Position numbers and translations under genes: made by a program. From Branchinecta lynchi (Eukaryota; Arthropoda; Branchiopoda; Anostraca; Branchinectidae), in NCBI GenBank assembly GCA_023053575.1, contig JAKZAP010000005.1, positions 5,518,001 to 5,582,000 on the forward strand: DNA of 64,000 nt, given 5' to 3'. This document shows positions 24,201 to 61,900 of this stretch, piece by piece. The notes beneath the pieces are model-generated. The model was not told where the DNA came from. It did not search any database and saw nothing but the letters and a program-made list of their open reading frames with translations. The stretch's first letter is position 1, and each line of letters begins with the position of its first letter.

Positions 24201-25261
24201 AAAGTGTGAGCAGTTGGGAAAACTGCACTTTACCCCCAACACCATCTCCTCCACAGGGGATTCTTTTTCACCTGTGCAGGGGTTTCCCCTGTGGAGGTGA
24301 ATTCTCCAAAAAGTCTGGTGACCAACAGCTGAACGGACAATCAGTCTCAGTTTTGATTCTAAATTCGATAACTGAGAAAAAAAATTCGGGAACTGGAACA
24401 TGGGTTCCGAACATTGGTTTCCGAACGGTTTTCTGATCTCTTGGCATTCGGAAACTGAGAAATGCTACTATAGTTTGGAAAAAGTACTGTTATGACCATC
24501 CGCTTCAAACTAGAAAGGTGGCACGTACCAGTAAGTAAGCCAGTTTTACAGAGAATGATCAGTTGATGAGAGTTTTTTTCTATATGCTCGTGGAAATTTA
24601 TTGCAATTTTTTTAAAAGAAATCTGCCAGTAAATTTGAAAATCGTTCGGGAACTAGGATAGTTACCCTATACAATCTGAAAATTGGCACATCAGCAAGGG
24701 AATTCTAGGTAGGTAAAAAGATCATTAATTACCAGTGCTCATGAGGTGTAGGAGCGCTTCAGCATACTGCAGGTACTTCAACTTGTATAGTTCAATCTGA
24801 AGCCTTGCATTGTGGGGGCTTGTGGGATTCTTCAGGAAGTCGCTAATATCCCATGGGTATACATTCCCTGGCAGCTCTTCTTTGTAATTGCGAAAGTCAT
24901 CTCCATGATCATTTTTATAGATGGTGTCTAATGAAACAGTTGGGTAATGCTTCATTTCCAGCTGCTCAGCCAAACCAGCAGCAAGTTTTGATTTCCCAGC
25001 GCCTGGCATCCCATCAACAAATAACACAGCTGAGTTCTCATCAAACCTTGTTAGACAGTCATCAAAAATTCCATGGGGGAAAGGGTAGAAATGTTTCTTC
25101 TCATATGGGAAGGGTGCTGGCTTGTCTACCTTTTTCTCCCTCAAAACTTTTCCACTAATGCATCGTTTTGCAACTGCAAGAATTCCAAAAGAGAAGCCAT
25201 TCTGATCCCCAGGGAATTCAGGAATCCTAAATATTCCCACAGATCTCTTGATCACATTCAT
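3228..25261 (-). CDS. NDUFA10: NADH dehydrogenase [ubiquinone] 1 alpha subcomplex subunit 10 (complex I 42 kDa subunit)
   Basis: This is an accessory subunit of mitochondrial respiratory complex I, on the matrix side, built on a deoxynucleoside-kinase fold. Six coding exons (24733-25261, 11682-11768, 10906-11107, 8184-8354, 6873-6987, 3228-3296) join with matching phases (1,1,2,2,0) and GT-AG borders to 1173 nt, or 390 residues plus stop. That is close to the family size of roughly 350-410. The N-terminus is basic, as in a mitochondrial presequence. A clear P-loop G-MPGA-GKS lies at residues 84-91. QGVVLE then PHLVIYLDVPVEETEKRI are the family's kinase-like core strands. The usual E-R-S motif reads E-Q-N here, consistent with loss of catalysis. 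The splice acceptor seven bases before the ATG shows that a 5' UTR exon lies upstream. The introns are stuffed with transposons. Confidence 0.96.
3700..4400 (+). repeat. Minisatellite element ending in a stem-loop
   Basis: Repeats of GGGCAATCTGGGCCC lie near 3910, 4059 and 4190, with A/G-rich linkers and a 'cacgggtcacgaac' phrase. Its right side is closed by the hairpin AGTGGAGTGT-TCCAAGGG-ACACTCCACT at 4369-4396, followed by AAAAA. The layout resembles the two larger stem-loop families elsewhere in the window, but the sequence differs. The left boundary is approximate. Confidence 0.5.
4864..5238. mobile_element. hAT-type MITE with 8-bp target duplication
   Basis: Terminal inverted repeats of about 33 bp begin CAGAGCAAAATAAC and end with its complement. 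The flanks are GCCAACCT (4856-4863) and GCCAATCT (5239-5246), an 8-bp duplication with one mismatch, typical of hAT superfamily insertions. A related copy is at about 38.10-38.73 kb. It has no transposase. Minus-strand open frames crossing it are incidental. Confidence 0.75.
5565..6155 (-). mobile_element. Decayed MITE, reverse copy of the 41.17-41.55 kb element
   Basis: The reverse complement matches the element at 41174-41543 over long stretches (for example the phrase around GTACGGTACATTCTAAC and AACCCACGTTTTTTTGC). It is split by the SINE-like insertion at 5687-5940. Its ends are eroded, so no clean target duplication is visible. Confidence 0.6.
5687..5940 (+). mobile_element. SINE-like element with ATTC tail
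   Basis: It ends GCCCTTGGGC...GGGAATAA followed by (ATTC)n at about 5925-5940 and interrupts a MITE. A second sequence with GCCCTTGGGC and an ATTC tail lies on the minus strand at about 37690-37870. No A/B box promoter was convincingly found. Confidence 0.55.
6873..6987 (-). CDS. NDUFA10: NDUFA10 coding exon 5
   Basis: Acceptor TTTTTCCAG, donor AAG|GTACGT. It enters in phase 2 and leaves in phase 0. It encodes (R)FGAKKFALEGLFNLP then an acidic helix ending VRNK, the C-terminal part of the subunit. Confidence 0.92.
6988..8183 (-). other. NDUFA10 intron (1.2 kb)
   Basis: It holds a mariner-like MITE (7255-7659) and a poly-C run at about 7908-7924. Otherwise nothing is recognised. Confidence 0.7.
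7255..7659. mobile_element. Mariner-like MITE flanked by TA
   Basis: Perfect inverted ends of about 29 bp start GTTGCGTTTTTGCAG and contain the self-complementary core CAGATACCATGGTATCTG. TA dinucleotides flank both sides (7253-7254 and 7660-7661), as after Tc1/mariner insertion. The interior repeats ACCACGGTAACTG-type motifs in both orientations, so one strand can fold extensively. A partial second copy lies at about 32966-33100. Confidence 0.78.
8184..8354 (-). CDS. NDUFA10: NDUFA10 coding exon 4
   Basis: It enters in phase 2 (AG|C) after TTTGTATACTTTAAG and leaves by CTACAG|GTAGTG. It encodes (S)NAAELLVYDWTEMGDEEVV then VEDIERINFD and a WRRLQ-WNDLRYR tail. The VEDIE...FD phrase is diagnostic of NDUFA10. 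Confidence 0.94.
8450..9960 (-). repeat. TATGGCACTTG stem-loop minisatellite element, copy E
   Basis: On the minus strand it ends ACGGACGGACAGAAATTGCG then CACAAGTGCCATAA, so only one arm of the usual terminal hairpin remains. Inside are units with GTTTCAT, GGATCTGAATGAA-type phrases and poly-G runs shared with copies A-D. It ends about 95 bp from the NDUFA10 exon at 8354. The distal limit is approximate. Confidence 0.65.
10617..10893. mobile_element. Short palindromic MITE next to a splice donor
   Basis: The ends GTTGCGTTCCC and its near complement GGGTACGCATC are followed inward by AACTTAAC and GTTAAC repeats on both sides. CTATG direct repeats flank it (10612-10616, 10894-10898). The insertion begins 13 nt inside the intron that follows the exon at 10906-11107. 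Confidence 0.68.
10906..11107 (-). CDS. NDUFA10: NDUFA10 coding exon 3
   Basis: Acceptor CTCTTGCTTACAG, donor ATGAG|GTGAGG, phases 1 and 2. It encodes (V)EQWYKALILSTHAEILHPHL, VIYLDVPVEETEKRI and a segment ending SYLPDM(R). The PHLVIYLDVP strand is a hallmark of the kinase-like fold. Confidence 0.95.
11108..11681 (-). other. NDUFA10 intron (0.57 kb)
   Basis: It holds a hairpin-prone stretch at about 11166-11260 (GAGGTACTTACT...AGTAAATAAGTACCTC, a CT run, then ACTTAAGTAAGTAAAT). Nothing else is recognised. Confidence 0.6.
11682..11768 (-). CDS. NDUFA10: NDUFA10 coding exon 2
   Basis: Acceptor TTCTACTTTCCAG, donor AGAG|GTGAG, phase 1 on both sides. It encodes (G)QGVVLEQNPYIDVAFTQAM then VECGYLTKR. 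The family's L-E-R-S motif is L-E-Q-N here. Confidence 0.94.
12050..14100. mobile_element. Non-autonomous hAT-type element with internal array
   Basis: The ends read CAGGGGCGTCCCGAG and CTCGGGACGCCCCTG. Perfect 8-bp duplications AGGTTTCC flank it (12042-12049, 14101-14108). Poly-G and poly-C tracts lie just inside both ends. The interior carries degenerate repeats of about 190 bp built on ACCGAATTCGGT and GACCGAATTATGAAATGGAC (about 12.9-13.9 kb). Small hairpins near the right end include ATCACGGCTTCGTGAT. No transposase is seen. Confidence 0.85.
13422..13730. mobile_element. piggyBac-like MITE nested in the hAT-type element
   Basis: TTAA at 13418-13421 and 13731-13734 flanks 12-bp inverted ends AGGACACCTGAA. 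The host repeat reads straight through if the insert is removed, so it jumped in after the array had formed. No recognisable transposase. Confidence 0.8.
14502..17486 (+). repeat. TATGGCACTTG stem-loop minisatellite element, copy A
   Basis: It starts AAGAGCTACGAGCTCGTATG then GCACTTG. It ends with AGACCGACAGACCGAC, an AATCGCCATATGG phrase and the perfect hairpin TATGGCACTTGAG-TAAG-CTCAAGTGCCATA (17454-17483). The interior is an array of units with GTTTCATCCCGATCCCTCCA, TTTCCGGTTCCC and ATCCGGTCCGG. One 139-bp subunit is duplicated at about 15.87-16.15 kb and again near 16.44-16.70 kb. Open frames here follow the repeat and are not genes. Confidence 0.75.
18242..21866. mobile_element. 3.6-kb element with hairpin inverted ends and long direct repeats
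   Basis: The left end (18242-18273) and right end (21838-21866) are perfect inverted repeats of at least 29 bp. Each contains the stem-loop GTGTTGC-GAGA-GCAACAC followed by TTTGGTTTTGT. Inside, a unit marked by CTATCCGTAAC...GGATTAAAATACCATAG recurs at about 18413, 19126, 19878 and 20423 (spacings 713, 752 and 546), with shared phrases such as GAAGATGATTATG. A 24-base poly-A lies before the right end. It has no convincing protein-coding gene. The CGTTGCCCGGGCAACG palindrome at 18188-18203 lies just outside. Confidence 0.72.
23735..23835 (+). repeat. Short minisatellite
   Basis: Three to four roughly 30-bp units of the form CCTCTCTGGAGGCTGATGAC followed by TTCAT. No function inferred. Confidence 0.6.
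24093..24320. repeat. Large palindrome with 88-bp arms
   Basis: The left arm 24093-24180 and right arm 24233-24320 are near-perfect inverted copies around a 52-bp spacer. The spacer itself contains a direct repeat (GTGAGCAGTTGGGAAAA). Each arm contains the smaller palindromic motif CCACAGGGGAATCCCCTG or a close variant. It may be a fold-back element or a structured transcript in the NDUFA10 intron. Confidence 0.85.
24733..25261 (-). CDS. NDUFA10: NDUFA10 first coding exon (start codon)
   Basis: It encodes residues 1-176. The ATG at 25259-25261 lies seven bases after the acceptor TTTTCTGTTGTTTCAG, so the exon continues five untranslated bases to 25266 and an upstream untranslated exon must exist. 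The basic N-terminus suits mitochondrial import. The P-loop G-MPGA-GKS is at residues 84-91. The exon leaves by CACTG|GTAATT in phase 1. Confidence 0.95.
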
Positions 25262-25843
25262 CCCAGCTGAAACAACAGAAAAGCTGGGACCAAACTATTT
25301 TGTAGAGAACAAATCTTTTCTTCTTCAAATCAATCTTAGTTTTAAAAATTGTTGCTAAACTTATATTCCGCTAGATAACGCCCTTGCCGCAGGCGTACGA
25401 TGAACTGCTATTGGCCCATTCAAAGTTTGTCTGTGAAATCCGCATACACCCAATTTAGATAGCGTTCCAGCAACTTATTATTAGGTACGATCCTTACTAT
25501 TCTTGTTATTATTGCCGTTCCCGAGCCTGCTGTAATAAGCAACTTGGCTCCTCCGACTCAATGTTGCCAGATGGTTTTAGTGGAATTGCGTAGCCTCTTC
25601 CAAAAATTGCGCCCAATGGAGCATTTTTTCGTAAAACTGATTTCGGCCGTAAAGCCTATTTTTTTTGAGAAAATGCGCCCAATTGGGCGCATTTTTGGCA
25701 AAATGCGATTTTTTTTATTTTATAAACGTGATATAACTTCTAGCGTATACGGTTGTGGTCGACTAGACTACCCACATTTTCCCAATTCTCCAGTTGCCAT
25801 TGACTTGTTGCAACAGACTTTTCAACCAGACGCTCACGGAAAT

Positions 25844-30902: not shown

Positions 30903-32316
30903 CAAGACCAAAGGTTTCGATGGGATCCCAAAAATTCAATATCTGATCCAGACAACTGGGTCTTTTCTTAGCCAGATCCAGTCTTCGCCAGACTCCTTGA
31001 ACATTTTTACAATTAAAATTCAGAAACAGATTAAGGCCAAATAGCTAATCACCTGAGAAAACCAAGTTCAGATTTGGATTCAGCATGTGTGTTTACCCCT
31101 ATAAGTCATATCTGTTTTGACGAACACTTCCTGCCACTTCTGCCAATTTCCCGGTTCCGGCCGAACTCCAGAACTACTTGTCCGGCGAAAAAAGAAAGCT
31201 CAAAGACGAAATCAGGATATCTTCTTTCCCCAGTAATGAACATCTAATCAACTTCAAATAGAAATTTAGCTTATAACAAATTTTCCGATTCCAGCCGGAT
31301 TCCGGTCGAACTATATGTCCGGGTAAAATACGATTGTCACACAGGGACTCAGTATCTCTTCTTACCCCTAAATCGCTTATCTAATCAACTAGAAATAAAA
31401 CTTTGACTTCCAACAGTTTTCCGGTTTTGGCCGGATTCCGGACGAACTACATGTCCGGGTAGAAACTTGTTTTCACATAAGTGTTCAGCATGTCTTCTTG
31501 CCCTAAATCGAACATCCAATCAACTCCAAATTAAACTTTTAATTTTGACAAACTTTCCGGTTTGGGCCGGATTCCGGTCGAAATACTTGTCCGTCGAGAA
31601 AATAGTTTTCACCATCGTCTTCAGCATGTCTCCCTACCTCTAAATCGAACATTTAATCAACTTCAAATAAAACTTTTACTTTCAACAAACTTTCCGGTTT
31701 GGGCCGGATTCCGGGCGAAATACTTGTCCATCGAGAAAATAGTTTTCACCATCGTCTTTAGCATGTCTTCTTACCCCTCAATCGAACATCTAATCAATTT
31801 CAAATAAAACTTTTACTTTCAACAAACTTTCCGGTTTGGGCCGGATTCCGGGCGAAATACTTGTCCGTCGAGAAAACAATTTTCACCATCGTCTTCAGCA
31901 TGTCTTCCTACCCCTAAATCGAACATCTAATCAACTTCAAATAAAACTTTTACTTTCAACAAACTTTCCGGTTTTCGCCGGATTCCGGGCGAACTACTTG
32001 TCCGATGACAAAATGGTTTTCACCATCGTGTTCAGCATGTCTTCTTACCCCATAATCGACTATCACATTAGCTGTTTCAAAATATTTTGCTTGTCCCTTA
32101 ATTTCAATCCCCTCCCCCACCCCTAAATGTAGAGCTACAAAGCCCATCTACGAACTTGACTGGTCCGACGACCCAACGAACCGTCTCACCAAGTTTCATC
32201 AAAATATCTCATTCCCTTCGAGAGTTATCGTGCTTACAGACGGACGGACGGACAGACGGACAACTTTTGCGATGTCATAGGTATCCCTCCACTTACGTTT
32301 TGGGATCCCAAAAAAA
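30903..32316 (+). repeat. GGGATCCC-ended minisatellite element, copy 2
   Basis: It starts AAGACCAAAGGTTTCGATG plus GGGATCCCAAAAA and ends TTTTGGGATCCCAAAAA. Between about 31.4 and 32.0 kb, four to five units of about 136 bp repeat AACTTTCCGGTTTGGGCCGG, then a TTCCGGGCGAA phrase and CATCTAATCAACTTCAAAT. Before the end lies AGTTTCATCAAAATATC and a (GACG)n run (32236-32260). Confidence 0.8.
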
Positions 32317-43900: not shown

Positions 43901-46900
43901 TGAAAAGAAAAAGTTGTGTACAGGAACGACCGAGAGCGCACTGTTGTTGCAGAACTTGCGCAGACGAACAGCTCATAAGCAATCCAATGTTTCCCAATGT
44001 TCTAAAAGAAGAGCTGGAAGCTCATATGGCACTTGCAAGGCCAGGTTAGATGGAAGTGATGGTCAAAAGTATTTTTTTCGCTTTTCGGATAAGATGCGCT
44101 AAACTTGCAAGGCCGGGTCAAAGGATGGAAGTGATGGTCAAAGGTTTTTTTTTCGCTTTTCAGTTACGATGCGCACTTTCTGTTGCTTAAAAATAATTTC
44201 TAAGCAAAACTCTTGAGGCAAAAAGGATCCTGTGCTCATGGGAATCGTGAAAAATTAAATTTTGCTTAAAAGTATTTTTTGTATTTTGCTGTTAAGATGG
44301 GTTCTTTAAAGAATGGTCGGATCGGAGAAGTCATGATGTCTGACCCAATGATGTCAAGTTTCTAATGCTCCAGCAAAGTTTTATCATCCTAGCACATCTG
44401 GGTGTACCTTAACTCACGATCACCGGAATTTCGGACACCCCCACCCCCTCGGTACTCAAATCCGGTCCGATTCTGTCACTGATGCACCTAGGATCCCACC
44501 AAGTTTCATCCTGATCGCTCCACTCTATGCGTATCACAAGATTTCTGGTTCTCCCCCCCCCCCCCAGAGAGTTCTTTTAAGATATCAAGTTTCATTAAGA
44601 TCCGATCACCCCAGTTATGCATGCCCATATTTTCTAGATTCCGAAACCTCCCCCTCCCCCCACGATGGTCGGATCGGGCAAGTGACTAATTCCAAGTTAG
44701 TTTGGTCGGGTCCCTAATACGCCTGCCTGTTAGGGAAGTACCCTAACTCGCAAACACCGAACTGACCGACCGACCGACCAACCGACGGAAAAGTGATCGG
44801 TTTATGGCACTTGTCCGGAAGGCAAGTGCCATAAAAACAGGTAAGAACCTGCAGAAGAGTGAAAGAAATCTAGTTTACTGGGATTAGGCCTTCAAACTAA
44901 CACCTCAAAGTCGATGAGAACGAAAAGGATACCAAGGACTTGGCGTACTACTGACTGCAAACTGTGGCACCTAGGTCGACTAGAAAGTGGCATTACCTTC
45001 ACGTTTTCCAGCGCCTTTTCTTGTTGATCTAGGGGTGCTCGGAGGCAGCTCGGAGGGAACAGCGGGCTCAGCGCTAGAAGCGCGCATGCTACGTCTGGGC
45101 CTTGTTGGCTCGGCTGACTGGCTTCTTCCCTCATGGTCTGCGAAGAGATCTGGACTTACTGACATCCTACTCCGGCTCCGCAAAGTCATCGATAAGGACA
45201 GGGGCTCAGGTGAGGCAGGCTCTTGGGAACTGATACTCCTGGCTCTTCGAGTCTTGGATGGTGTGACATTGACTTCTTCTGAAAGAGCTGCTTTCTTTGA
45301 AGGTGTCTGTCTCCTCGATGGTTTATTTACTTGGTCAACATCAGGCGGAGTTTCCGGCAGTTCTATTTCCTTTGCTTTCCCGGATTCTTCAGATGTTTCT
45401 ATGTCTCTCTGATTTGAAAGCCTGCGGGTCCTCATTCGTTTCGCTGGCTGAGCAGCGATTGACTCAGACACAGACTTCCTCTTGGGCTTAGACTGGCTAC
45501 GGACTTCCGGAGCAATCTCCTCCGACAATTCAGACTGGTCGATGACAGTCGGTCTCTCTGATGGCTTTTCTTTACTTTTGTCTTCCTGCGATGCTTTGTC
45601 TGTTCCTTCAAGGTCGTCCTTAGTCGCGTTGGCTGCGATATTAACCAGCGTTTGATTCACTTGAGGTGGATCTTCTGGACTGCTAACATGATTATCTCCT
45701 ACTGAAGATATTTCGAGTGTGAAATCCTCTTTACCTTCTTCCGTTCGCGGAGTGATAATGTCCGTGAGTTCAGTTTGGACGGCAGTAATAGAAACAGATG
45801 TGGTGGATGTGGTCGTTATGTCAACGCTTGCAGCTGTCGATAATATCTCTTCAACGACTGACTCAGCAATCTCATTAGCACCGGGCTGGCTCTCCTCCAT
45901 CTCACCAGTAGGACTGCAGGGCAAGTTAACGGCGTCAGCTTGCGGCAAAGGTGTTGCCGATGGCTCCATTTCTTCCTTCTGGCTGGGCATTGGCGTTTTA
46001 GTGACATGTTCATCCTCTGGAACAGACACCGTAACTTCCCTCTCGCTCGTGTTCATTGTGTCAGTCGTGCTAGATTTTTCTGTATCTCTTTCCTCATGTT
46101 CGACTTCTGGAGATGGCTGATCCACTCCCATCGAAACTTCTTCAGTTGAGCTGGTTTCGATCTCTGATACCTTTCCGGTGGATTCAACATCGAGTTTTCC
46201 TGGTGGATTGACAGGAGGCAACTCGACTGGGCTGCTGAAGACGTGATCCTCACCTAAGGAGACTTCCAGGCACATACCTTCTTCAACTTCTTCAATATAA
46301 GGAGCAGTGGCGTTCGCAGCGTCTGGCTGGGTAGAAGTAACGGAAACAGACGATGTTGATAGCGTCGATGTTTCAACAGAGTCAGATGTCAACAACAGCT
46401 CTCCAGTAACTGAGTCAGCTGCAGCCGACTGGCTGGGGTCGGTTCCATTACTAGGGCTCGAAGGCAAACGATCCGCCTCAGCTTCTGGTGAGCGTTTTGT
46501 CGACTTTTTATTTTCTTCTGTGTCTTCGTCCGAACTGGGCCAGTCGTCCTTGAAAGCGCGGAAGACGGAACGGGTTTTCCTCGGCTTCGGTGTCGGTAAG
46601 AAAACACGCTCCTCTTCAGGGCTCTGTGGGATTACAATCTGAGAAAGTCTTCGATATTTCGCCATACTTTTAGCGAACGACACTTTGGGGGAGGAGGGGA
46701 CTTTGCTACGCCTTCCCCACCGCTTTGCTCCCGATCCACCATCACCAGAAGCTAATGAATCTTCCAATGTTGTTGTTTCAGAGGAAGTCTCTCTAGGCTC
46801 AGAGATAACTGATTCCTCCGGTAATGTTTCATTACTTATTTCCCCCTTTTCAGTCTTTTGGAGAGCTGACTGTCGTTGTCCCTCAGAATCGCGAGTATCT

Positions 46901-49900
46901 AGCTTTGTCGGCTTGCACAGATCTTGTTCTTCTGATGAGCTTTCTTGAGTCAAGTTTCTACTAGAAGAGGCGTCAGGTAGAACGGGAGAAGATCTTTGGA
47001 ATTCCGTTTCCTCCATTCCTGTGGCCTCGTAAATACTGTCCCTGCCTATCTCCGATTTGTCCGAATCTATTCCTGATTCTGAAATTTTCTCTTTAAGCTC
47101 AGAGATGACTGATTCCTCCGGTAACGTTTCATCACTTACTTCTTCCTTTTCAGGCTCTCGGAAACCTGACTGTCCATTTCCTTCTGAGTCGGAAACGTCC
47201 AACTTTGGCTGCTGGCCTAGGTCTTGTCCTAGTTCTAAGGAGCCTTCTTGAGTCAAATTTCCACTGGAAGAGGTGTCGGGGAGAACGGGATAAGTTCTTC
47301 GGAATTCCGTTTCCTCCATTCCTGTAGCCTCATAAATACTGTGCATGCCTATCTCGAAGTTGTCCTTGTCGACCTTTTCCGAAACAAGTGTTGTACGCGG
47401 CTCATCTACGAGAACCTCAAGTTCCAAATTCTTGCTAGAGATAACACAGGGCATATCGATAACCTCCGTTTCTTCCATTGCCATCTCGTGGAAGACTGTA
47501 CCGTGACGGATGTACGAGCCATCGGTATCCGACCTTTCCATCTCGTGCCTGCTCGGCCCTCTTGCAGCTAAGGCTTCCGGTGTCGAATCCCCACCAGTAA
47601 CGTCAATGGGAGAAGTAAAAGCCAACTTTTCCACATGTGTTTTCCCCGTCACCAAATCATGAACAGTAATATCATGAGTGCCTTCTGAAGCTTGGGTCTC
47701 AGAGCGGTCGACTCCGTACGTAGGTTCAGGTGACGATTCCCTGCAACTAATCATAATAGGAGATGCATCGGGTGACAATTCAAGACACATTTCATCCTCT
47801 TCGTTACCTTGAAAAATAATAGCTCTGTCGTTTTCAGAAGTTTGACTCTCCAAAAGATCCACAACATTGGCGATCGGCTCTTGACGAGGTGAGGCTTGGC
47901 ATGCCGGTTCCCTCATCGAAACATCAATGGCAGAAGCAAAGAGAAAATGTTCAACACATGGTTCCTCTGGCGTCATTTCCTGGAAAATACTCTGCCAGGC
48001 GCCTTTCGAACTATAAGTCTCTGACTGATCCGCAATGCGAACGACTGCCTCTTCTCCAGGTGAAAACTCGTATGCCGGTTCAGGTATCGACTCTCTGTAG
48101 ATAATTTCAATAGGAGAGGGAAAGGGCAACTTTAGAACTCTTGTTTCTTCCATTCCGATTTCTTGGAAAACGGTATGCCCAGCATCTTCCGACGCGTCAA
48201 TCTTTGACTGGTCAGCAACAGCACCGACTGATTCTTGAACGAGAACATCTTCGTACGTCAATTCAGGTGTGAACGTAACAAGGTTAGGAGCATCTTCTGT
48301 TCTCCCGACACGTGTTTCCTCCATCGGGGCATCTTGAAAAACAGTATCTTTCTCGCTCATCCAACTGCGAGCCTCAGACTGCTCAGCAATACGGGCGGTC
48401 GATGGATGAACGAGTGCAGCTCCATACAGCGAAGCAGGTGTCTCTTCGCTGCTGAAAATGACAGCAGGGGAAGGATTTCGTGACACGAGTGCTTCGTCCG
48501 CTGCGGCAACTTGGAAGACTTTATCCCTTACGCTTCCCGGCGTGTCCCTCTCGGACTGGTTGACTACAGGGGCAAGCGAATCATGAGCATCTGGAGCTTT
48601 GTCGGTCGGTCCTCTCTTGGTTGCATTAGAGAAGATGTGGGTTTCCTCCATGTCAGTTTCTTGCAAAATCGTTTGTCTTCTCTTAAATGAAAGTATCGCA
48701 TTGAGAACAGGATCAACAGGGCTTACATCTGGGGCCGTAACTGTTAAATCCGGCTCTACATCAAAGCCAGGCAATATACCACCCGGCTTCCAAACATTTG
48801 TTTCCTCCATCTCAGTATGCTGGAAAGTTGTTTGCCTGCGGCTCCAGAATGCGTCAGTACTTAAGGAAGAAACCGATTTTCTGGCAAAATTTGGAACTTC
48901 AACTTCATGTTTGGCTGTAGTCTCGACACGTTGTAGCTCAGCTGGTTGTGTCCCTGCGATCGTTTCCTCCATGCCCACCTCTTGGAAAGTAGTAATATCC
49001 TGGTTGTGGGAGCTCTCATCCTCCGGAAACACGTCAGCACCTAACGAGATTTCGTGGCTTGTGCGCAATTGAGAGATGGCTTGGTCAACGGGCAGCAGTA
49101 TTCTACTGGGCAAGGTCGCGACGTTGGTTTCGTCCATCTCGGTTTCCTGAACAGTAGTATGTCTGCGATTGTATGCTGAAATCGCCAATGAGAACGCATC
49201 GTTTTGTATATCGTCTTTGCTTACAAATTTCTCAGGTTCTGGAACACTTCCGACGGACGGCAGCACCTTCTGAGCTGGGCTCATCTTTACCATACCGCTG
49301 AAAGAAGCCCTTCCACTTATTAGCGCTTTCTTGTCCCTCTTTGATAACTTTGCTAACAATCATCGAAGTATCTGTGAAGCTCGAACCAAGATCGAGTCTG
49401 GATCTGGTACCGGAAGAGCCATCTAAACTGTGGAACGACTCCGTGTCGCTAACAGTCGACTCAAGGACTAGCTGGCCGGGGGCCACCTTCGTCATTTCCA
49501 TCCCAACGGATGTCAACTCGTCCATTATCTGAGGAGGCTTGACTGCTTCCATGTCATGAAGAAACGACACCTGCTCTTTCTGGATCTCACGCAAGGCCCA
49601 ATCTCTAGTCTCTTCTATAGCCCTTCTGACATGACCACCCATAGCAGTTATATCCATCTGTGTAGATGTCGGTTCCTGCTCGAATATATTGGCCGTCACT
49701 GCTGCTGTCATGTCCACTGAAGTCGAAGCAGTTGACTGGCAAGACCTCTCCGAGGCTTCAGGACTCTGGAATATAACAGGGGGCAGCGTGCTGAACCGTA
49801 AGTGCTTGGATCTAGAAACGGTGGTGTCTTCACTAAAACTGTCGTTTCTCGGTTTCAAGATTGACGAAGGCGGGAGCGCGGCCGCTCTACTACGTCTCTG

Positions 49901-52900
49901 GGCGTGCACTCGTTGCAAAGTAGGTGTTCGCAGTACAGCTCTAATATCAGGGGCAAGGATGGAGTCATCGAATCGGTTACTTGTCGCTTCAGAGATTCGG
50001 AGCTTCTTCGCGGAAGGAGGAGCTGCTGGCTCCTTAACTGGAATTTTTCTGGCGAAAGATACGGGGGAATGCTGAGCATCGTCGTTAAAGTGGATGCTTT
50101 TTAAGAAAGGGATTCTCTCTTCCTGGTCAAGTTTTCGCTTCCTGTTTGGCGTTGGCGTCGCTAGCAACACCTGCCTAGTCCCTTCAAGGACATCGTTCAT
50201 GTACTTATCAGCGTTCGTCGTAACTCTCACGGTGGAAGGCTTCACGATTGTCGACAGTGGTTTTGGGTAGGCTTTACCAGTAGCTGCAAGAACGGCCGGC
50301 TTCAAAGAACTGCAAGCCTTGGTGAGCTTAACCGTCAAAGGTGGAAGGGCCTTCATGTACGCAGCTACCAATGCGTCTCTAGTCGGGTTAGACATATTCT
50401 GCGCTTTCAGCTTCTTCTGAAAGGCGACGGCGTCTGCAAACTTCCCACGCTGGAGGTAAAAGGCAAGGAGCAAGTCTAAGCTCCTCGGGTTTTCCCACGC
50501 TTTCAGAAACTTTATAAATGCCTCTTCTTCGAATGAATCAAAAGGCTTGTTCATCATCAGGTCAAGCCGACCTTTTTCCGCACACGCAGTGAACATGTTC
50601 ATTAACAGCCACTCTCCATTCTCTCTTGTCCTCTTCTGTCTCTGGTACATAAAAGCATCGCCGACAAACCCATTAAGAAGAAGAAGACGAAGGTGCATCA
50701 GCCTGTCTTCGGGTTCGGGTTCACCACACTGTCGGAGAGAGACGAACCTAAGGGCGCGCTTGGGTTCATTGTCGTATATCATCAGCTTGATTATGCTTCG
50801 ATAGTCCCTCAACCCGATATCAGGATACCGGACGGTTGGATGGAGAAGGTATGAAAGGGCGTCCTGAAAGAAAATAAGGAACTTAGTGGCTTAGAATCGA
50901 ACACCCCATCTTGGCCCCGGAGATTCTGCAATCGAAGAGTTGAGCGCACATATATGAGAAGTCACTTTTTGCTCGTTTCGAGATAGTCGCGGTTAAGGTT
51001 TGGGAAGTTCATAGCAAAGACTAGTTATCACCTCTGTTGACTGAGTATCTCAGTTGGGGGGGGGGGGGGATCTGGCTAAAATTTTGATAGACAGGGAGAA
51101 AGAGAACAAATATACGTCCTAGATGGTGCTCTTAACTCAGTTTGTCAAAAAAGGTGAGTTATCACCTTTGTGCGCTAAGCTCTTCAATTGTCCCACTGAT
51201 CTACATAAGATTAACACCTTTCAGCATAATGAGAGCACTGGGATCAGCCTAACCTGAAAACTTGATTACATTCAATGGTTGACAGGCGATAATTGTCCTG
51301 ATGACCTCCGATTGCGAAACAAAAGACTGCCATGGCAGAATCCCGCAGACTCCGAACGAAATTCAAGTTACCGAAGTTGCAAGTGGTTAGTCAACAAACC
51401 ACAGGGCCAGACAGTGTTAACGGTCGATTCTGTGGCAACAATAACGAGAAAATGATCGGATTTCTTTCAAAAACAAGACAACTCAATGTAAGTTTTTATT
51501 TTACTTAAGTGCAGACCTAAGATCATTATCCTAAAGTATCTTAACATTTGTGTCGTAGTGATCTCGCCCAACAAAGCCCCGCAATGAATCCGTTTAGATA
51601 TGGAGGATGCAACTACTTGAAAGCATTCGTGCCAGTAACTATTCCCATTCATTCTTTGTCTCCACTTCTGTTAGTAATATTCTGTTTATCACAATTTCTA
51701 TTTTACCCAGAATCGCAACTGATTTTAGTTAACCTCTGCACGTGGACGATCAAAATATTTGGGCCTGATCAGGATCAGACTAAACCAGGTAGGAGAATCT
51801 GGAAGCAAATGATGTCAAACGACTTTCGGGTTTTGTAGAAGAGGACACCTGTTTACTTTGTCAGTTTAATATTATGTGGTTACGGACAGGGAAAACGAAG
51901 GAAACAAGTGCGAAATGATTCTGACCAAATAAAAGTCGCCAATGTCTATATCACGCACCGTCACTGACTTCTCAAACATAATTAGAAAGCAGGGGCGTCA
52001 CTATGGGGGGGGGGGGGAGGGGGGGGACTCCCCCCCCTAAAGGTCCTGAGAAAGTACTTTCGTCGGGCGAAGCCCGGCGAAAGTTCACTTGTTTGTCACA
52101 GAAAAAAAAAATTTTTTTCTTTTTATCAGGCATCGGTCGATTCGTCGGCACATCGGATGTTTTTATATGCAAGAAATAAAATCCTGCAAACGTTTGTCGG
52201 GCAAAACACGGAAGAAATCAAATTCTGCATGCTTTTGTCGTTCCTCGGTATTCTCGTCGGCACATCGGGTTCTTTTTATACAGAAGGAATCCAGAAGAAA
52301 TAAAAACAAACTAAGTTTTTGTCGGGCGTCGGTCGACTCGTCGGCACATCGGGTTTTTTTATACGCAAGAAATGAAATCCTGCAAACATTTGTCAGGCAA
52401 AGCACTGGAGAAATCGAATTCTGCAGGCTTTTGTCGGGCCTCGGTTCATCGGCACATTGGGTTCTTTTCTTACATAAGAAATCCAGAAGAAATATTTGTT
52501 TATGCTTTTGTCGGGCGTCGGTCAACTCGTCGGCATATCGGGTTCTACTTATACGTAAGAAATCAAATTTTGCAAACTTTGTCGGGCGCACCCAGGAAGT
52601 TTAAGTTTCATTGGCACAAGGGGTTATTTTTACACGTCTGAATCAAGTTCTGTACAGTCTAGTCGAGCAAAACACAGAACAAATCAAATGCTCGATGGTT
52701 TTCTCGGGCGTCGGTATTCTCGTCGGCACATCGTGTTCTTTTTACAAAAAAAAAAAAAAAAAAAATCAAATTCTGTAACTTTTTTATCCGGCGCATGCCG
52801 AAAGTTCAAGTCTCGTCGGTACATCGGCTTCTATATACGCGTAAAAAATAAAGTTCTTTACAATCTTGTCGGGCAAAACACAGAAGAAATCGAATTGTGA

Positions 52901-55900
52901 ATGCTTTTGTCGGGTGTCGATGTTCTTGTCCGCACACCGGGTCTTTTATACGTAAGAAATCAAATTCTGCAAAGATTTGTCGGTCGCAAATTTTTCCGGA
53001 AAAATACAGATTAAAAAAAAAATCGCCGGCCTTGCTTAGTTCAACTTGTTCTGGGTACAGTCGTTGGAAGCTTCGCTTCTTAGCAAAAGTTGAAACGAAA
53101 AGCCGAATATGTGATATATGTATTTACATCAAAGGAACAATGTCAACTGACGCATTACAGTAAGTTTTACACAAAATTTCGCCTGCGGCGCATTTTGTAG
53201 TATTCCCTATTTTCCTGTTCCTATTCCCCCTATTTTTATGGTGTATCATTTAGTTTTCCTTTTAGGATAGAAATTCTTGGGGTTTGAAAAACGTTAAAAG
53301 CCAGAAATTGTATGGTACTATAGCTGAATTTTCCGCAAAAAAAAACAGATTAAAAAAGTTTCGCCTGCGGCGCTTGGTTTAACTTGCCAGGTACAGTCGT
53401 TGGAAGCTTCGCTTTCCAGCGAAAGTTATAATGAAAAGCCGAATATGTGAACTTTAAAATTCGAAATTATACCAAAGGAATAACCTCAATTGATGCGTTG
53501 TTACAGTTAGTTCACACAAAATTACGCCTGTGGCGCATTTTGTAGTATTCTTTATTTAGAAGAACAGTGTTTCATTTAGCTTGGCGTTTTAGGATTGAAA
53601 TTCGCTGAAACACGTTAAAAGCTAGAATTGTATGGTAGGTATAGCTAAATTTTTCCGGAAAAAAAGGCAGATTTAAAAAATTTCGCCTATGGCGCTTAGT
53701 TTAACTTGTTCTTGGTACAGTCGTTGGAAGCTTCGCTTTGTAGCGAAGGCTAGAATGAAAAGCCAGATATGTGAACTTAAAATACGAAATTACATCAAAG
53801 GAATAATCTCAACTGATGCATTACAGTTAGTTTTACCCCGATTCTATTCTGAGCTGGCGGGAAATGTACGCCGTTGCCGCGAAGCGGCAACGGCGTGTTT
53901 TGTCGGCACATTTTTTAGTCCGTCGGCACAAACCGGACGTCCCTCCCCCCCAAAGGTAAAAGGCTAGTGACGCCCCTGGAAACAACACTATTTGATATGT
54001 TGACATACAGTTTAATTTTGTTACAAGTTATGAAGTCGTACAAGTTTTAGAACGAATTGTATATATCAATTATATTTTGTTTAAGTTGACAGTCCTATGC
54101 TATCATGTTGTGAAACGGTTATTCAGGATTAAAAGCGATGATTGATTGAAAAAAAATAAAAAATAAAAAAATAAGCTGCGCCAGACGCGCATCAAAATTA
54201 CTGGCAAGAATCATTGCCTTGACCTAACATTTAAACCAAAACAAGAACTACGAGCTCATATGGCACTTATTACGAGTAGGCACGGCTCGGTTATGTCAAT
54301 GATATATCTAGTGTTTGCTAGGTGTCTTCCCACCAAGTTTCATCTCGATCCCTCCACTCATAGCGTTTTCCAATATTTCCGGTTCTCCCCTCCAGCTCCT
54401 CCCAAAAGTCACCGGATCCGTCTGGGTCGTCTGAGGCATGAGGTCTTTCCAAATATCAAGTTTCATCGAGATCCGGTCACCCGTTCAAAAGTTATAAATA
54501 CCTCAAGATTCCGGATTCCCCCTCCCTTCACTCCCCCCACAGTGCCCGAATCGGCTCGGTCATGTCAATGATGTATCTAGTGTTTGCTAGGTGTCTTCCC
54601 ACCATGTTTCATCTCTATCCCTCCACTCATAGGGTTTCCCAAGATTTCCGGTTGCCCCCTCCAGCTCCCAAAAAAGTCACCGGATCAGGTCCGGATTTTA
54701 AGTGGGTCGTCTGAGGCATGAGGCCTTTCCAAATATCAAGTTCCATCGAGATCCGATCACCCGTTCAAAAGTTATAAATACCTCAAGATTCCGGATTCCC
54801 CCTCCCTCCACTCCCCCCACAGTGCCCAGATTGGCTCGGTTATGTCAATGATGTATCTAGTGTTTGCTAGGTGGCTTCATACCAAGTTTCATCTCGATCC
54901 CTCCACTCATAGCGTTTCCCAAGATTTCCGGTTGCCCCCTCCAGCTCCCCCAAAAAGTCACCGAATCCGGTCCGGATTTTAAGTGGGTCGTCTGAGGCAT
55001 GAGGTCGTTCCAAATATCAAGTTTCATCGAGATCCGGTCACCCGTTCAAAAGTTATAAATACCTCAAGATTCCGGATTCCCCCTCCCTCCACTCCCCCGA
55101 CAGTGCCCGAATCGGCTCGGTCATGTCAATGATGTATCTAGTGTGTGCTAGGTGTCTTCCCACGAAGTTTCATCTCAACCCCTCCACTCATAGTGTTTCA
55201 CAAGATTTCCGGTTGCCTCCTCCAGCTCCCCCCAAAAGTCACCGGATCCGGTCCGGATTTTAAGTGGGTCGTCTGAGGCATGAGGTCTTTCCAAATATCA
55301 AGTTACATCGAGATCCGATCACCCGTTCAAAAGTTATAAATACCTCAAGATTCCGGATTCCCCCTCCCTCCACTCCCCCCACAGTGCCCGAATCGGCTCG
55401 GTTATGTCAATGATGTATCTAGTGTTTGTTAGGTGTCTTCACACCAAGTTTCATCTCGATCCCTCCACTCATAGCGTTTCCCAAGATTTCCGGTTGCCCC
55501 CTGCAGCTCCCCCCAAAAGTCACCGGATCCGGTCCAGATTTTAAGTGGGTCGTCTGAGGTATGAGGTCTTTCCAAATATCAAGTTCCATCGAGATCCGAT
55601 CACCCGTTCAAAAGTTATAAATACCTCAAGATTCCGGATTCCCCCTCCCTCCACTCCCCCCACAGTACCCGAATCGGCTCGGTTATGTCAATGATGTGTT
55701 TAGTGTTTGCTAGGTGTCTTCCCACCAAGTTTCATCTCGATCCCTCCACTCATAGCGTTTCCCAAGATTTCCGGTTGCCACCTCCAGCTCCCCCCAAAAG
55801 TCACCGGATCCGGTCCGGATTTTAAGTAGGTCGTCTGAGGCATGAGGTCTTTTCAAATATCAAGTTCCATCGAGATCCGATCACCCGTTCAAAAGTTATA

Positions 55901-58900
55901 AATACCTCAAGATTCCGGATTCCCCCTCCCTCCACTCCCCCCCCCCCCCACAGTGCCCGAATCGGCTCGGTTATGTCAATGATGTATCTAGTGTTTGCTA
56001 GGTGTCTTCCCACCAAGTTTCATCTCGATCCCTCCACTCATAGCGTTTCCCAAGATTTCCGGTTGCCCCCTCCTGCTCCCCCCAAAAGTCACCGGATCCG
56101 GTCCGGATTTTAAGTGGGTCGTCTGAGGCATGAGGTCGTTCCAAATATCAAGTTTCATCGAGATCCGATCACCCGTTCAAAAGTTAAAAATACCTCAAGA
56201 TTCCGGATTCCCCCTCCCTCCACTCCCCCCACGGTGCTCGGATCGGGGAAGTGACTATTTCCAACTTAATCATTTGGGGTCCCTGATACGCCTGCCAAGT
56301 TTTATCGTCCTAGCTTATGTGGAAGTGCCCGAACTAGCAAAACCTGGACAGACCGACAGACCGACGGACGGACAGAAATTGCGATCGCTATATGGCACTT
56401 GGCCGAAGGGCAAGTGCCATAAAAAACACCACAGTTTTCAGAGACCGTGAGCCTTCTACGTGGTTAACTGAGGAATGTGTTTGTTCGTTAATATTACTAC
56501 TTTCATATATTGAGTGCATAAAGGGCAAATACAAATCAGCTGACAAAAAATATGGCATGGGCGCTTTAAGGGGTTTATCGTCATTTGTACGTCAAGTAGT
56601 TCTTCAATGTCTAAGCATCAGTCGAAGCTTTCTTTACAGACGGCATTCATGGTTGTTGCGGTCCTCGTGTCAACAGTCCTCGCAGCTCCAGCCATCAACG
56701 TCATCCCCGTACCTGTCACGGCAGCAGAGGCTGGTGCCGCTACGTTGGGAGTCATGCATGTAGCTCCACTGGTCCTGGGAGTCCCCATAGCGTCATCAAG
56801 AATCCCAAGCGCCCCACTGCCCGTACCGGCTCCTGTACCAATGCCCCTAGCTGCTGTGCCCTTCTCGAGTCCGCTGGCACAGCCCATTAGCGCCGCTAGT
56901 GATTCTCTCTCTAGCAATAAATTAATGATGCAAATGATGTGAGCCAGCCGAGTCTTCTTTGCAAATGTACATCCTATTTATACTTGTGAGAAAGTGTTCT
57001 GGTTCAAATAAATCGAGGTTGCTGAATGTTGACTTCTAAGCAACCCCATCTTCTAACGATGAGTACTAATCCGTCACTAAAAGCTACACAGTCGCTCTAC
57101 CCTGTACATCCCCCTCCCCGGTTCGAACGAAGAACTGGTTGGGGGTTGCAAAACAACCCAAGTTTTTATAGAACTGAGGAAGGCGCTATGGAGCCGGAAA
57201 AAACTGATGTGTGGACCAAAATCAGAATTTATCAAGACAGCAGCCTTCACCGATTCTTCAAAAATGATTCAAACCGTACCTTCTAGTCCACGGTACCAGG
57301 TATTAACGCACAGTTTGAAAACTTATACTTCAGAAAAAAGGGTGGGGGCAAATATAGCTGAAACAGCGAGTTTCACAACAGATAACACAGAGATGCGCGA
57401 TTTCAACAGATATAACAGATAACACAGAGATGCGCGGTTTCAACAGATAACAATTAGGAGGTTAGCTTTTATGTTTTTCGTTACGCATTAAAACGTTATG
57501 GACACAAGAAGAGACAAAACCCCACAGAAAAAACATCTGCTAACTATTCTGCTTGTCATCATGTCATCGGAATAGTCAGCAGATGCTTTTTCGGTTTTTT
57601 TTTGCTCTTCCTGGCAACACTTGCCATGCATAACGTTTAAAGTTTAGCCGAATAGAGCCAGAAAGTCTTGTTATACCTCACTTATTCTCTTAATTAGGCC
57701 TGCAAAACCAGATAAAAATTAGTTACTCCGTTTGTCCACTGACCTACAAATAATCGATTTCATCGAATGAACTTATTCCTTCGGATTTGTGATACCTCTG
57801 TGCACCTGTTGCTGGATGTCTGAAATATTTATAACTATATATACAACTAAAAAAAGTTAAGCCATGCCATTATAACTAAAAAAGTTAAGCCATGCCATTA
57901 GAACTAAAAAAGTTAAGCTTTTGCCGAAAATAACTAAAAATGGCAGATTCGTCCTAAGACCTTCCATCATGTTCCTACTTTCTCCAGCCGTGGCTTTTCC
58001 GACCATAGTGTCTTTAATCACGGAAGTCCAAGCTTTTTACGAAATAAAAATTCTCCGCGTCTGGATGAATTTTGGGTTGTCGTGCGAGCAGCGCACATTC
58101 TGAACATTATTGCTATAAAGCCTCGGGTGAAAAAAATCACCTTACATGGGTCAAAATATTCCAGGTATCCACATATCAGATGTAAGAAGACCAAACGTGT
58201 CGATGGGATCCCACAAATTTAATATCTCATCCAGAGAATTGGGTCCTGTCTCCAGACTCCCTAAGCATTTTTACTACAAAAATTCAGAAACGGATTTAAG
58301 TCCAAATACCTAATCATCTGAGAAAACCAAGTTCAGATTCAGAATGTGTGTTTACCCCTATAAATCATATTGGTTTGGACGAAACTGATCGAAACTTCCT
58401 GCCTTAGCCTACTTCTGCCAAATTTCCGGTTTCTACCGAATTTGGGAACTACTTATCCGACAAAATAGCAAAGCTCAAAAACGAATTCATCGTCTCTCCT
58501 TACGCTTATATCGAACAACTAATCAACTTCAAATAAAGCTTTAACTCAAGACAAATTTTCCGGTTTCAGCCAGATTCCGGGCGAACTATGCGTCCGGGTA
58601 AGACACGATTATCATGTACAGATTCAGCATCTCTTCTTACCCCTAAATCGGAATCTAATCAACCACAAATAAGACTTTTGCTTTTAACAAATTTTCCGGA
58701 TCTGGCCGGATTCCGGGCGAATTACTTGTCCGGCGGGGAAATGGTTTTAATAATCGTGTTTTGTATGCCATTCTACCCCTGAACCGAACATGTAATCTAC
58801 TTCAAATAAAATTTGTGCTTTTAACAAATTTTCCGGTTTGGGCCGGATTCCGGGCGAACTACTTGTCCGGCGACGAAATGGTTTTCATAATCGTGTTCGG

Positions 58901-61900
58901 CATGTACTTTTATCCTTAAATCAAACATCTAATCAAGTTCAAATAAAACTTTTACTTTTTTTAAATTTTCCGATTTGTCCGGATTCCGGGAGAACTACTT
59001 GTCCGGCAAAAAAAAGGTTATCACCATCGTGTCTAGCATGTGCTCTTACCCCATAATCGACTACCACATTAGCTATTTAAAAATATTTTGGTTGCCCCTT
59101 AATTTGAACCCCTACCCCTCTACGAACTCGACCTTACTATTGACCCAAAGAATCCTCACACCAAGTTTCACCAAATATCCCATTCCCTTCGAGAGTTATC
59201 GTGCTTACAGACGGACGGACGGACAACTTTTGCGATGTCATAGGTATCCCTCCACTTACTTTTTCGGATCCCAAAAAGAAGCTGCCTTTTCAGCTAAAAC
59301 TTTAGTGCATAACCTTTGAAAAATCATAACACATAACATCTCAAATTGTATCTGTTAAAACAGAGCATATCGTCTCTGTTATGAAACTTATCACCGTGTA
59401 GACAGCCTAATCGCTGTAGGAACGTCCCATGGTGTCTTAATGTAAGTTCTCATTCTTGCCCTCATGAACTGGAAGGAGGCAGCTATTTCTATTTATTTTT
59501 TACCAAGTTGCAAGCAAAAGAACTTTCAAATCGTTTTCACGGGATTCAGATCAACATTGGATTCTAGATACTATCTGATCAGCAATGCTTACCTCATATT
59601 TCCTATGATCCATCATCCAGTAAGCAACGGTAGCCTTGCTGACTGCCTGATTTAAGCTTACAGCGAGAGGGAACTGCTGCAACATATCCAGAACATCAGG
59701 GCTACGCTCTTCACTCAACGCGGCGGCAACGTCCATCAGTAAGTATTGGACGACGCGATGTTTCAATTTAAGAGCTCCATCGAGTAGGTATATCTCCAAA
59801 AGGGACTGAAGGCTCGGGGGAGGGTAAGGGTTGGTCTGCTCACTACCCCACACTGAGACTACTTGCTCACCCAGATCTTCAAGGAAGTTGTCGATGAGAA
59901 GAACTTTCTGTGGATCGGCAGAGCTGCCTTCGGCGAGCGATTCTCTCCTGAAAAGAAACTTTGCCGTCAAGGTACTAGATGGCGTGTGAGACACTAACTT
60001 TGAGAGAGGGTAACAACGATAGATAAGCTTGACATAACGTGGGGCTAAGTTTTCACAGGAATTACTTACTGAGACCTCTTAAGAAACAAGACCAAAGGTT
60101 TGGATGGGACCCCAAAAATTTAATATCTCATCCTGTATTCTCATCTTTTTGTCCACTACCTTGCTCAGCACTACAACGCCAAATAATGTGCGTCTTGTTT
60201 TTTTTTAACTATGTCTTGACAATGCCAGTGCTATTTTGTACAATATTCTGGCAAATACAACGATTGATTGATTGATTGACTCCTATAGCATTTTACTACA
60301 AAAATTCAGAAACAGATTAAGGCCAAATAGCTAATCATCTGAGAAAACTAAGTTCAAATTTGGATTTACTATGTGTGTTTAACCCTATAAGTCATATTTG
60401 TTTTGACGAAACTGATCGAAACTTCCTACCTTAGCTAACTTCTGCCAAATTTCCGGTTTCTGCCGGATTAAGGAACTACTTATCCGACAAAATAAGAAAC
60501 CTCAAAAGCGAATTCACCGTTTCTCCTTGCCGCTATTTCGAACATCTAATCAACTTCAAATAAGGCTTTAACTCGTGACAAATTTTCCAAGTTTCAGCCG
60601 GATTCCGGGCGAACTATGCGTCCGGGTAAAACAACGATTGTCATATGTATTTTTAACTCTGATCAGTTCGACTACTCAAAATTTCTTAGAGTTATTTAGA
60701 GGCAAAAGCCTTTTCTCTTGCTTTGTATTATTATGTACGGATTCAGCATCTCTTCTTACCCCAAAATTGGGAATCTAATCAACTACAAATAAGACTTTTG
60801 CTTTATACAAATTTTCCGGTTTTGGCCGGATTCCGGGCGAACTACTTGTCTGGCGAGAAAATGGTTTTCATATTCATGTTCAGCATGTTCTTTCTACCCC
60901 TAAATCAAACATCTAATCATCTTCAAATAAAACTTTTACTTTTAACAAGCTTTCCGGAATTTGGCCGGATTCCGGGCGAACTACTTGTGTTCACCATGTC
61001 TTCTTACCCCTTAATCGACTATCACATTAGCTGTTCAAACATATTTTGCTTGCCCCTTAATTCAAACCCCCTCCCCCAACCCTAAATTAGGGCTACAGAA
61101 CCCATCTACGAACTCGACCTTTTGACCTAAAGAATCCTCACACCAAGTTTCATCAAAATAGCTAATTCCCTTCGAGAGTATCGTGCTTACAGACGGACGG
61201 ACCGACAACTTTTGCGATGTCATAGGTATCCCTCCACTTATGTTTTGGGATCCCAAAAAAGCGTAAAGGTTCAATGCAAATGCTGTACTCGTAGTACCGA
61301 TTCCCTTTTCTTTCATAATTGCTCGACCCATCATGCACGGAACCTCGTAGCCTACGGTTTTCACTGACCCTAATATTTACGTTTACCCCTTTTCTTCTTA
61401 TCCCCCTTGCAACAAGCCCATTGACCGCCTGACGAGGACCCTTGCCAAGAAGGGCCGAAATATCGCTGATGAAGAATCATAGCTGACGTATCCGTTGTAA
61501 ACATTGTTTGAATAAATGTTTCAAAGTTAGCTTGCGCTCAAAGAATATTTAAGCCCCCTCCCCCCCCCCCCCCCATCAGAAACAAGACGACATGAACGTA
61601 GCAATTCTGGACACAAGCAAGAGGTTTCCTGCCTACAACCTTGCTACAACTTAACAAACGCTACGAAATAAAACGCGAAAAACGTACCTTGATGCATAGA
61701 AACCTCGGAGTTTGGCAATCGGGTAAGGTAAACGGCTACTGGGAAGGTCTTCTGAATCGTCCTCATGGCCTGTACCCGGCTCCCTGTGCTCTGCCTCAGG
61801 AAGCAGGCCTGAATGCACGAACCATAACAGTACTTCCAGATGTTCCGTTATGAGTTTCGTTGCTTTTGCGCGTTGTCTCAAAGCTGAAAGGTTCAAGTTG

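Follow-up and report, generated by a model that had tools for sequence, protein, structure and literature searches.

A repeat array resembling MELT motifs in the tail of the nucleoporin ELYS of Branchinecta lynchi

Described systems and the ELYS gene of Branchinecta lynchi

The logic of the checkpoint platform, in which a kinase writes, a BUB3-type reader reads and PP1 erases, is known from KNL1. In KNL1/Spc105 the MELT motifs are written by MPS1, read by BUB3-BUB1 and erased by PP1. The motif has been given as M-[E/D]-[L/I/V/M]-T, residues 1 and 3 of which enter a hydrophobic pocket of BUB3 (PMC3779320), and as [M/I/L/V]-[E/D]-[M/I/L/V]-T with an upstream TxxΩ element and an SHT step thought to be vertebrate-only (PMC7614552). 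Bound to BUB3, the methionine occupies the hydrophobic pocket while the acidic residue and the phosphothreonine lie on arginines (PMC3779320), and MELT turnover in KNL1 is rapid (PMC7292645). Most of the MELT-binding residues of BUB3 are identical in RAE1, whose pocket is nearly the same and which was put forward in 2013 as a protein that might read phosphorylated motifs (PMC3779320). In a pocket described as the same as that of BUB3, RAE1 holds a methionine that has acidic residues on its flanks (PMC9376891), and it reportedly binds BUB1 and localises with it at kinetochores (PMC4695854). ELYS/MEL-28 is reported to bind PP1 through a dock near its FFAT-2 motif (Hattersley 2016, as cited in PMC6406801 and PMC11094025), and human ELYS binds VAPB via FFAT-2 in a phosphorylation-dependent manner (PMC11094025).

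The window analysed here, a stretch of 64,000 nucleotides, carries on its minus strand a genuine ELYS gene, in agreement with the first-pass annotation of this DNA, and the array described below sits within it. The ELYS helical domain (Pfam PF13934) is spread over two exons. The first half (PF13934 positions 2-104, E 3e-15; solved ELYS chains, E 6e-13) lies in an exon at 59593..60078 that ends at the donor GAG|GTAAGC inside a surrounding open frame of 59551-60078, only its 3' end being fixed. The second half (positions 100-218, E 1e-13; solved ELYS chains, E 1e-17) lies in an open frame at 49232..50863 with the acceptor TTTCAG|GAC, which also holds a SILK + RxF region and three MELT-type tetrapeptides. 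An exon further upstream (L002) matches the ELYS beta-propeller PF16687 at E 1.6e-5 and 24.2 bits, below the cut-off of 25.8; the exons were partly traced. A second open frame of 1,459 codons (44980..49359, minus strand) contains the array and the ELYS C-terminal tail up to the stop. The two frames overlap in different phase and must be joined by a short intron or an assembly indel. There are 131 phase-compatible GT-AG pairs that could join them, none clearly best by a crude score; some would excise unit 1 of the array, and units 3-13 are independent of the join in the best 8 of the 131 pairs by score. A candidate splice at 49290/49176 is probably wrong, because to the eye NDAFSLAIS (49203..49177) looks like the stretch leading into units 3 and 4.

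Nine ELYS orthologues obtained by protein searches served for comparison, namely six insects (Colletes, Nasonia, two rows grouping with them, the beetle Brassicogethes and the mosquito Armigeres) and three vertebrates (the marsupial Dromiciops and the lizards Euleptes and Tiliqua). All nine were kept in motif counts, alignment and tree, P0003 being without its N-terminus. After the helical domain of the B. lynchi protein, the alignment places the PP1-docking-like motif SSILK (49853..49867, minus strand) opposite SILK, GILK or SILR in 9/9 orthologues, and the RxF motif KHLRF (49793..49807, minus strand) opposite [IVL]RF in the six insects and [RK]ISF in the three vertebrates. These matches are in line with the PP1 dock that has been reported for ELYS/MEL-28, and the B. 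lynchi protein presumably binds PP1 as well. The motif VIFQSPEAS (49751..49777, minus strand), of the form F-[FYVQ]-[SG]-P, follows the RxF motif in the alignment; it is shared with the six insect rows (P0001-P0005, P0009), where it reads F-[FYV]-[SG]-P, and is possibly a phospho-FFAT-like site. In the tree of the helical domain the B. lynchi row stood with the three vertebrates against the six insects (94/95, not starred) on a long branch that the tree program flags with a warning, and no placement is claimed.

Further down the tail, a motif search found a strict RVxF-type motif, KVSF (46675..46686, minus strand), and a motif count found basic R-x-R..S elements at the C-terminus (SKTRRARSISS and RPRRSMRASS within 45073..45258, minus strand). 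The last 400 residues hold 4 such elements against 0.13 expected, and the nine orthologues have 5, 4, 1, 5, 2, 3, 1, 0 and 1. The sequence ITDDES occurs in the ELYS tails of P0001, P0002, P0003 and P0004 (Colletes, two further rows and Nasonia) in 2, 2, 2 and 1 copies, and is absent from the other five orthologue tails and from B. lynchi ELYS. Like ELYS/MEL-28 (AHCTF1), the B. lynchi protein combines a candidate propeller exon (the match below cut-off), the helical domain, SILK + RxF and a basic C-terminal tail, but the nine orthologues, from insects and vertebrates, have no array in their tails.

The thirteen-unit array and its constraint

Just after SILK + RxF, in the same unbroken frame as the ELYS helical domain, the open-frame translation reads VDMT (49706..49717), MDIT (49646..49657) and MEMT (49490..49501), all on the minus strand and all as named in the first-pass annotation. 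Further along this strand, between 49158 and 46996, come thirteen units in register: unit 1 TTVQETEMDETNV (49120..49158), unit 2 TTFQEVGMEETIA (48955..48993), unit 3 TTFQHTEMEETNV (48793..48831), unit 4 TILQETDMEETHI (48634..48672), the decayed unit 5 KVFQVAAADEALV (48484..48522), unit 6 TVFQDAPMEETRV (48307..48345), which is the most FFAT-like, unit 7 TVFQEIGMEETRV (48136..48174), the decayed units 8 SIFQEMTPEEPCV (47953..47991), 9 IIFQGNEEDEMCL (47782..47820) and 10 ITVHDLVTGKTHV (47632..47670), unit 11 TVFHEMAMEETEV (47461..47499), unit 12 SIYEATGMEETEFR (47299..47340) and unit 13 SIYEATGMEETEFQ (46996..47037). Successive units are 55, 54, 53, 50, 59, 57, 61, 57, 50, 57, 53 and 101 residues apart, which bears out the earlier description of a spacing of mostly 50-60 residues, with a range of 50-61 before the last interval. 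The same description had counted about twelve units of the form T-x-F-Q-x(3)-M-[ED]-E-T-x-V; thirteen are in register, but M-[DE]-E-T is intact in nine, the other four being decayed (ADEA, PEEP, EDEM, TGKT), and few have the full pattern. Exact T-x-F-Q-x3-M-E-E-T is found in 4/13 units, three of them with Val at +5.

Across the thirteen units the best-kept positions are Glu at position 3 (12 units, Lys in one) and the acid at position 2 (12), followed by Thr (10), Met (9), an aromatic residue at -5 (10) and Gln at -4 (9). The residue at +5 is hydrophobic in 12/13 units and Ala in one; Met is lost in four units, and three have no aromatic. The leading Thr stands within R-R-x-T in 3/13 units, a context that could suit Aurora-type kinases. 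The element PSPIEI, earlier said to be shared by the linkers, exists as S-[PA]-I-x-[IV], but at 4 places only.

The repeats are real and far beyond chance. The 1,590-residue tail contains 11 instances of M[DE]xT, where 20,000 shuffles average 0.60, peak at 5 and never reach 11, and the longer pattern [ST]x[FYLV][QEH]x3M[DE]xT 9 times against a mean of 0.004. In the tail after SILK, M[DE]ET occurs 9 times against a shuffle mean of 0.07. The broad MELT consensus is found 5 times in the tail (VDMT, MDIT, MEMT, IDVT and VDIT) against 0.92 expected. The first three of these lie within 72 residues, a clustering that 16 of 20,000 shuffles reproduced. In the nine orthologue tails the counts of M[ED]xT are 0, 0, 0, 0, 1, 0, 0, 0 and 1, and the broad consensus is absent from eight and present once in one. 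A search of the 576-Mb genome with a DNA pattern for T-x-F-Q-x3-M-E-E-T, which detects just 4 of the 9 intact units, gave five matches, four in the array and one stray on another contig inside no listed open frame of at least 60 codons, against none for the reversed control. The array protein, searched against the same genome at E <= 10, matched no gene besides its own ELYS.

The codons show constraint on the core and little in the flanks, as the first reading of the array had proposed from its conserved cores and divergent linkers. Over the 78 pairs of the 13 units, which are non-independent, pN/pS is 0.43 at the nine core positions and 0.85 in the flanks; part of this core conservation is ascertainment, because the units were recognised by the motif. 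A cleaner comparison comes from a 300-bp tandem duplication with units 12 and 13 (46788..47355, minus strand), which TRF found without the motif. Its overall dN/dS is 0.40 over 100 codons, and nonsynonymous sites are changed at 0/32 in a 13-codon core, a window picked with the motif known, versus 41/202 elsewhere (Fisher p 0.002).

Comparison with MELT motifs and with KNL1

Like the MELT array of KNL1/Spc105, the array recurs many times along a long tail, spaces its Met, acid and Thr in the same way with a Thr and an aromatic upstream of them, adjoins PP1-dock-like motifs, and includes decayed as well as recently duplicated members. Its multiplicity, decayed units and recent duplication recall the rapid turnover of MELT motifs in KNL1 (PMC7292645). 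It is unlike KNL1 in its carrier, ELYS, in the acidic position 3 of all intact units, in having T-x-aromatic in place of TxxΩ, and in lacking both SHT and any match to the Pfam MELT models. The first-pass annotation had called it a KNL1-like array of MELT-type motifs, a description that fits in part. The published consensus [M/I/L/V]-[E/D]-[M/I/L/V]-T fits VDMT, MDIT and MEMT but 0/13 repeat units, all nine intact ones failing at position 3, where the annotation had itself noted Glu as unusual for MELT. No unit has Thr at -8 as TxxΩ would place it; [ST] at -7 together with F/Y at -5 is found in 7/13. Neither MELT (PF19221) nor MELT_2 (PF15402) matched ELYS at E <= 10 in a genome search, and a Pfam search of the array protein returned no family. 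We do not file the array as MELT, because no unit has the consensus and neither Pfam model matches; this lowers the claim of being MELT, not the claim of working like MELT.

Pfam models found no KNL1 in the B. lynchi genome, all matches being below cut-off: one for the KNL1 C-terminal RWD domain Knl1_RWD_C (PF18210; E 5.3, the same level as in control genomes), three for PF19221 (E 2.8-5.8) and one for PF15402 (E 6.1). The open-frame listings covered, those of L003, L004 and L010 and not of L009, L011 and L012, held no recognisable KNL1 gene. L010 (G000:C12:12999374-12999409, minus strand) is a single sub-threshold match to Pfam MELT (E 3) that reads IYDNEMNITQSHS and stands where a 113-codon frame begins; the surrounding 3-kb locus holds no array. 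A genome search for the array geometry with NTN (hydrophobic) at position 3 gave 29 matches versus 39 in the reversed control, none less than 0.8 Mb apart. This failed search does not show that KNL1 is absent, as the models may be too distant or the repeats spaced differently. The stray MEET match of the genome pattern search (G000:C9:15908892) and the position-3 matches C17:24049749, C20:3374383 and C21:7301616 look like copies of one dispersed repeat, because their DNA is nearly the same.

The annotation had known of no ELYS with such an array, which accords with the nine orthologue tails and with the literature: no report of a MELT-type array in ELYS was found in the text available, and in the ELYS papers PMC4920428 and PMC12239628 the word 'melt' has an unrelated sense.

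Candidate readers and rival explanations

We regard the observation itself as sound and unusual, and a mechanism of BUB3 and MPS1 as possible but unproven. The reading that we favour, tentatively and as something short of probable, is a lineage-specific ELYS tail in which a multivalent MELT-like array follows the PP1 dock and has a BUB3-type propeller, BUB3 or RAE1, as its reader. ELYS may have gained a docking platform in the style of KNL1, and on this reading the array would be a docking array, probably a phospho-regulated one. Multivalent short docking motifs would have been gained right after the ancestral PP1 dock. The Met of a unit would enter the hydrophobic pocket of the seven-bladed propeller and its acidic residue or residues and (phospho-)Thr would meet the basic patch, the upstream T-x-aromatic assisting. 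A mitotic kinase, MPS1 or PLK1, would write the Thr, and PP1 docked next door would erase the phosphorylation. The reader would be BUB3 with BUB1/BUBR1, or its paralogue RAE1 with NUP98; the phosphorylation, the reader and any mitotic function are predictions from the protein's motifs.

RAE1-NUP98 is a candidate on account of the Glu at position 3 and of a carrier that is itself a nucleoporin. The clear mismatch at position 3 speaks for RAE1 or another reader no less than for BUB3, and M-E-E would be compatible with the Met-plus-acid pocket of RAE1. Like the array units, the viral ligands of RAE1-NUP98 have Met followed by acidic residues, but they are described as having Pro before Met (PMC9376891), as does 1/9 intact units (unit 6), and the array differs further in belonging to a host nucleoporin and in having Thr at position 4. 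The bolder proposal, that ELYS is a KNL1-independent scaffold whose roughly twelve phospho-switchable MELT/MEET motifs and PP1 eraser recruit BUB3-BUB1 at kinetochores or RAE1-NUP98 at pores and chromatin, seems to us unlikely. Were it true, the MELT-type pocket would have, beyond KNL1, a ligand array native to a host protein, and RAE1 would possibly have the motif ligand long suggested for it. Against the favoured reading as well stands a review's statement that the Nup107-160 complex does not appear to regulate the checkpoint (PMC4695854). A constrained Met-acid-acid-Thr array beside a conserved PP1 dock on a nucleoporin is a concrete candidate for the RAE1-reader idea; it would be an example of such a platform arising on a different protein that links pores, chromatin and kinetochores.

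A short-linear-motif array for a partner outside BUB3/RAE1, such as a kinase or phosphatase dock, an importin or a chromatin factor, with a convergent likeness to MELT, is a serious possibility that we nevertheless lean against. It would suit the failure of consensus and Pfam models, the best-kept pair of acids with a Glu unlike MELT, the kept Gln at -4 and hydrophobic +5, neither of them MELT features, and the R-R-x-T context; yet none of the known motifs considered is a better fit, the combination of Met, acid and Thr with a Thr-aromatic upstream keeps recurring, and tetrapeptides of canonical MELT type adjoin the array. LIR, PP2A-B56 LxxIxE and TRAF2 motifs failed by eye in unit after unit, and a regex search found no KI-like motif. 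Rather improbable is an FFAT-like array, whose units would bind the VAP MSP domain and, at mitotic exit, anchor chromatin coated with ELYS to the membranes of the ER and nuclear envelope. Its precedent is FFAT-2 of human ELYS, a VAPB site which likewise lies near the PP1 dock (PMC11094025) and whose EYQDAPS is resembled by unit 6 (VFQDAPM), the one unit with aromatic-Q-D-A-P; an aromatic stands at FFAT position 2 in 10/13 units. Against it, FFAT positions 4 (D/E/S/T in 8/13), 5 (A/C/S/T in 7/13) and 7 (acidic in 1/13) are not kept and the six residues upstream hold 0-2 acids; the E-F-F-D-A-x-E core and acidic tract do not extend across the thirteen units, and the kept M-E-E-T is left unexplained.

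The recent duplication of units 12 and 13, the four decayed units and the absence of the array from nine orthologues would also fit a tandem expansion, neutral or almost so, in an acidic disordered tail with no specific partner, but the lower pN/pS of the core and the duplicate core free of amino-acid change make this very unlikely in our judgement. Barely credible is an artefact in which misassembly or a faulty gene model attached an array from another gene, for example KNL1, to ELYS. The frames do overlap in different phase with no single best splice pair; yet if the second frame were dropped, about 210 residues would follow SILK, versus tails of 839-1,291 in the nine orthologues, that frame ends in R-x-R..S elements found in most orthologue tails, and Knl1_RWD_C has no Pfam match in it or on the 29.7-Mb contig. 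We rejected a KNL1-ELYS misassembly because one open frame holds the ELYS domain, SILK and the three MELT-type motifs, and because the contig is 29.7 Mb long.

Elsewhere in the window, an exon of NDUFA10 (complex I) lies at 24725-25294 on the minus strand, matching PDB chains 8esw and 8b9z, which we take to be from fly, at E 1.5e-33 versus 1e-11 for other chains, a difference suggestive of an arthropod. Tandem arrays at 54283-56246, 15850-16775, 31212-32059 and 58514-59052 repeat with periods of 134-137 and 281 bases, and their C-rich units look related. An open frame of 132 codons at 56544-56942 on the plus strand has a signal-peptide-like start followed by an Ala/Pro/Val-rich stretch.
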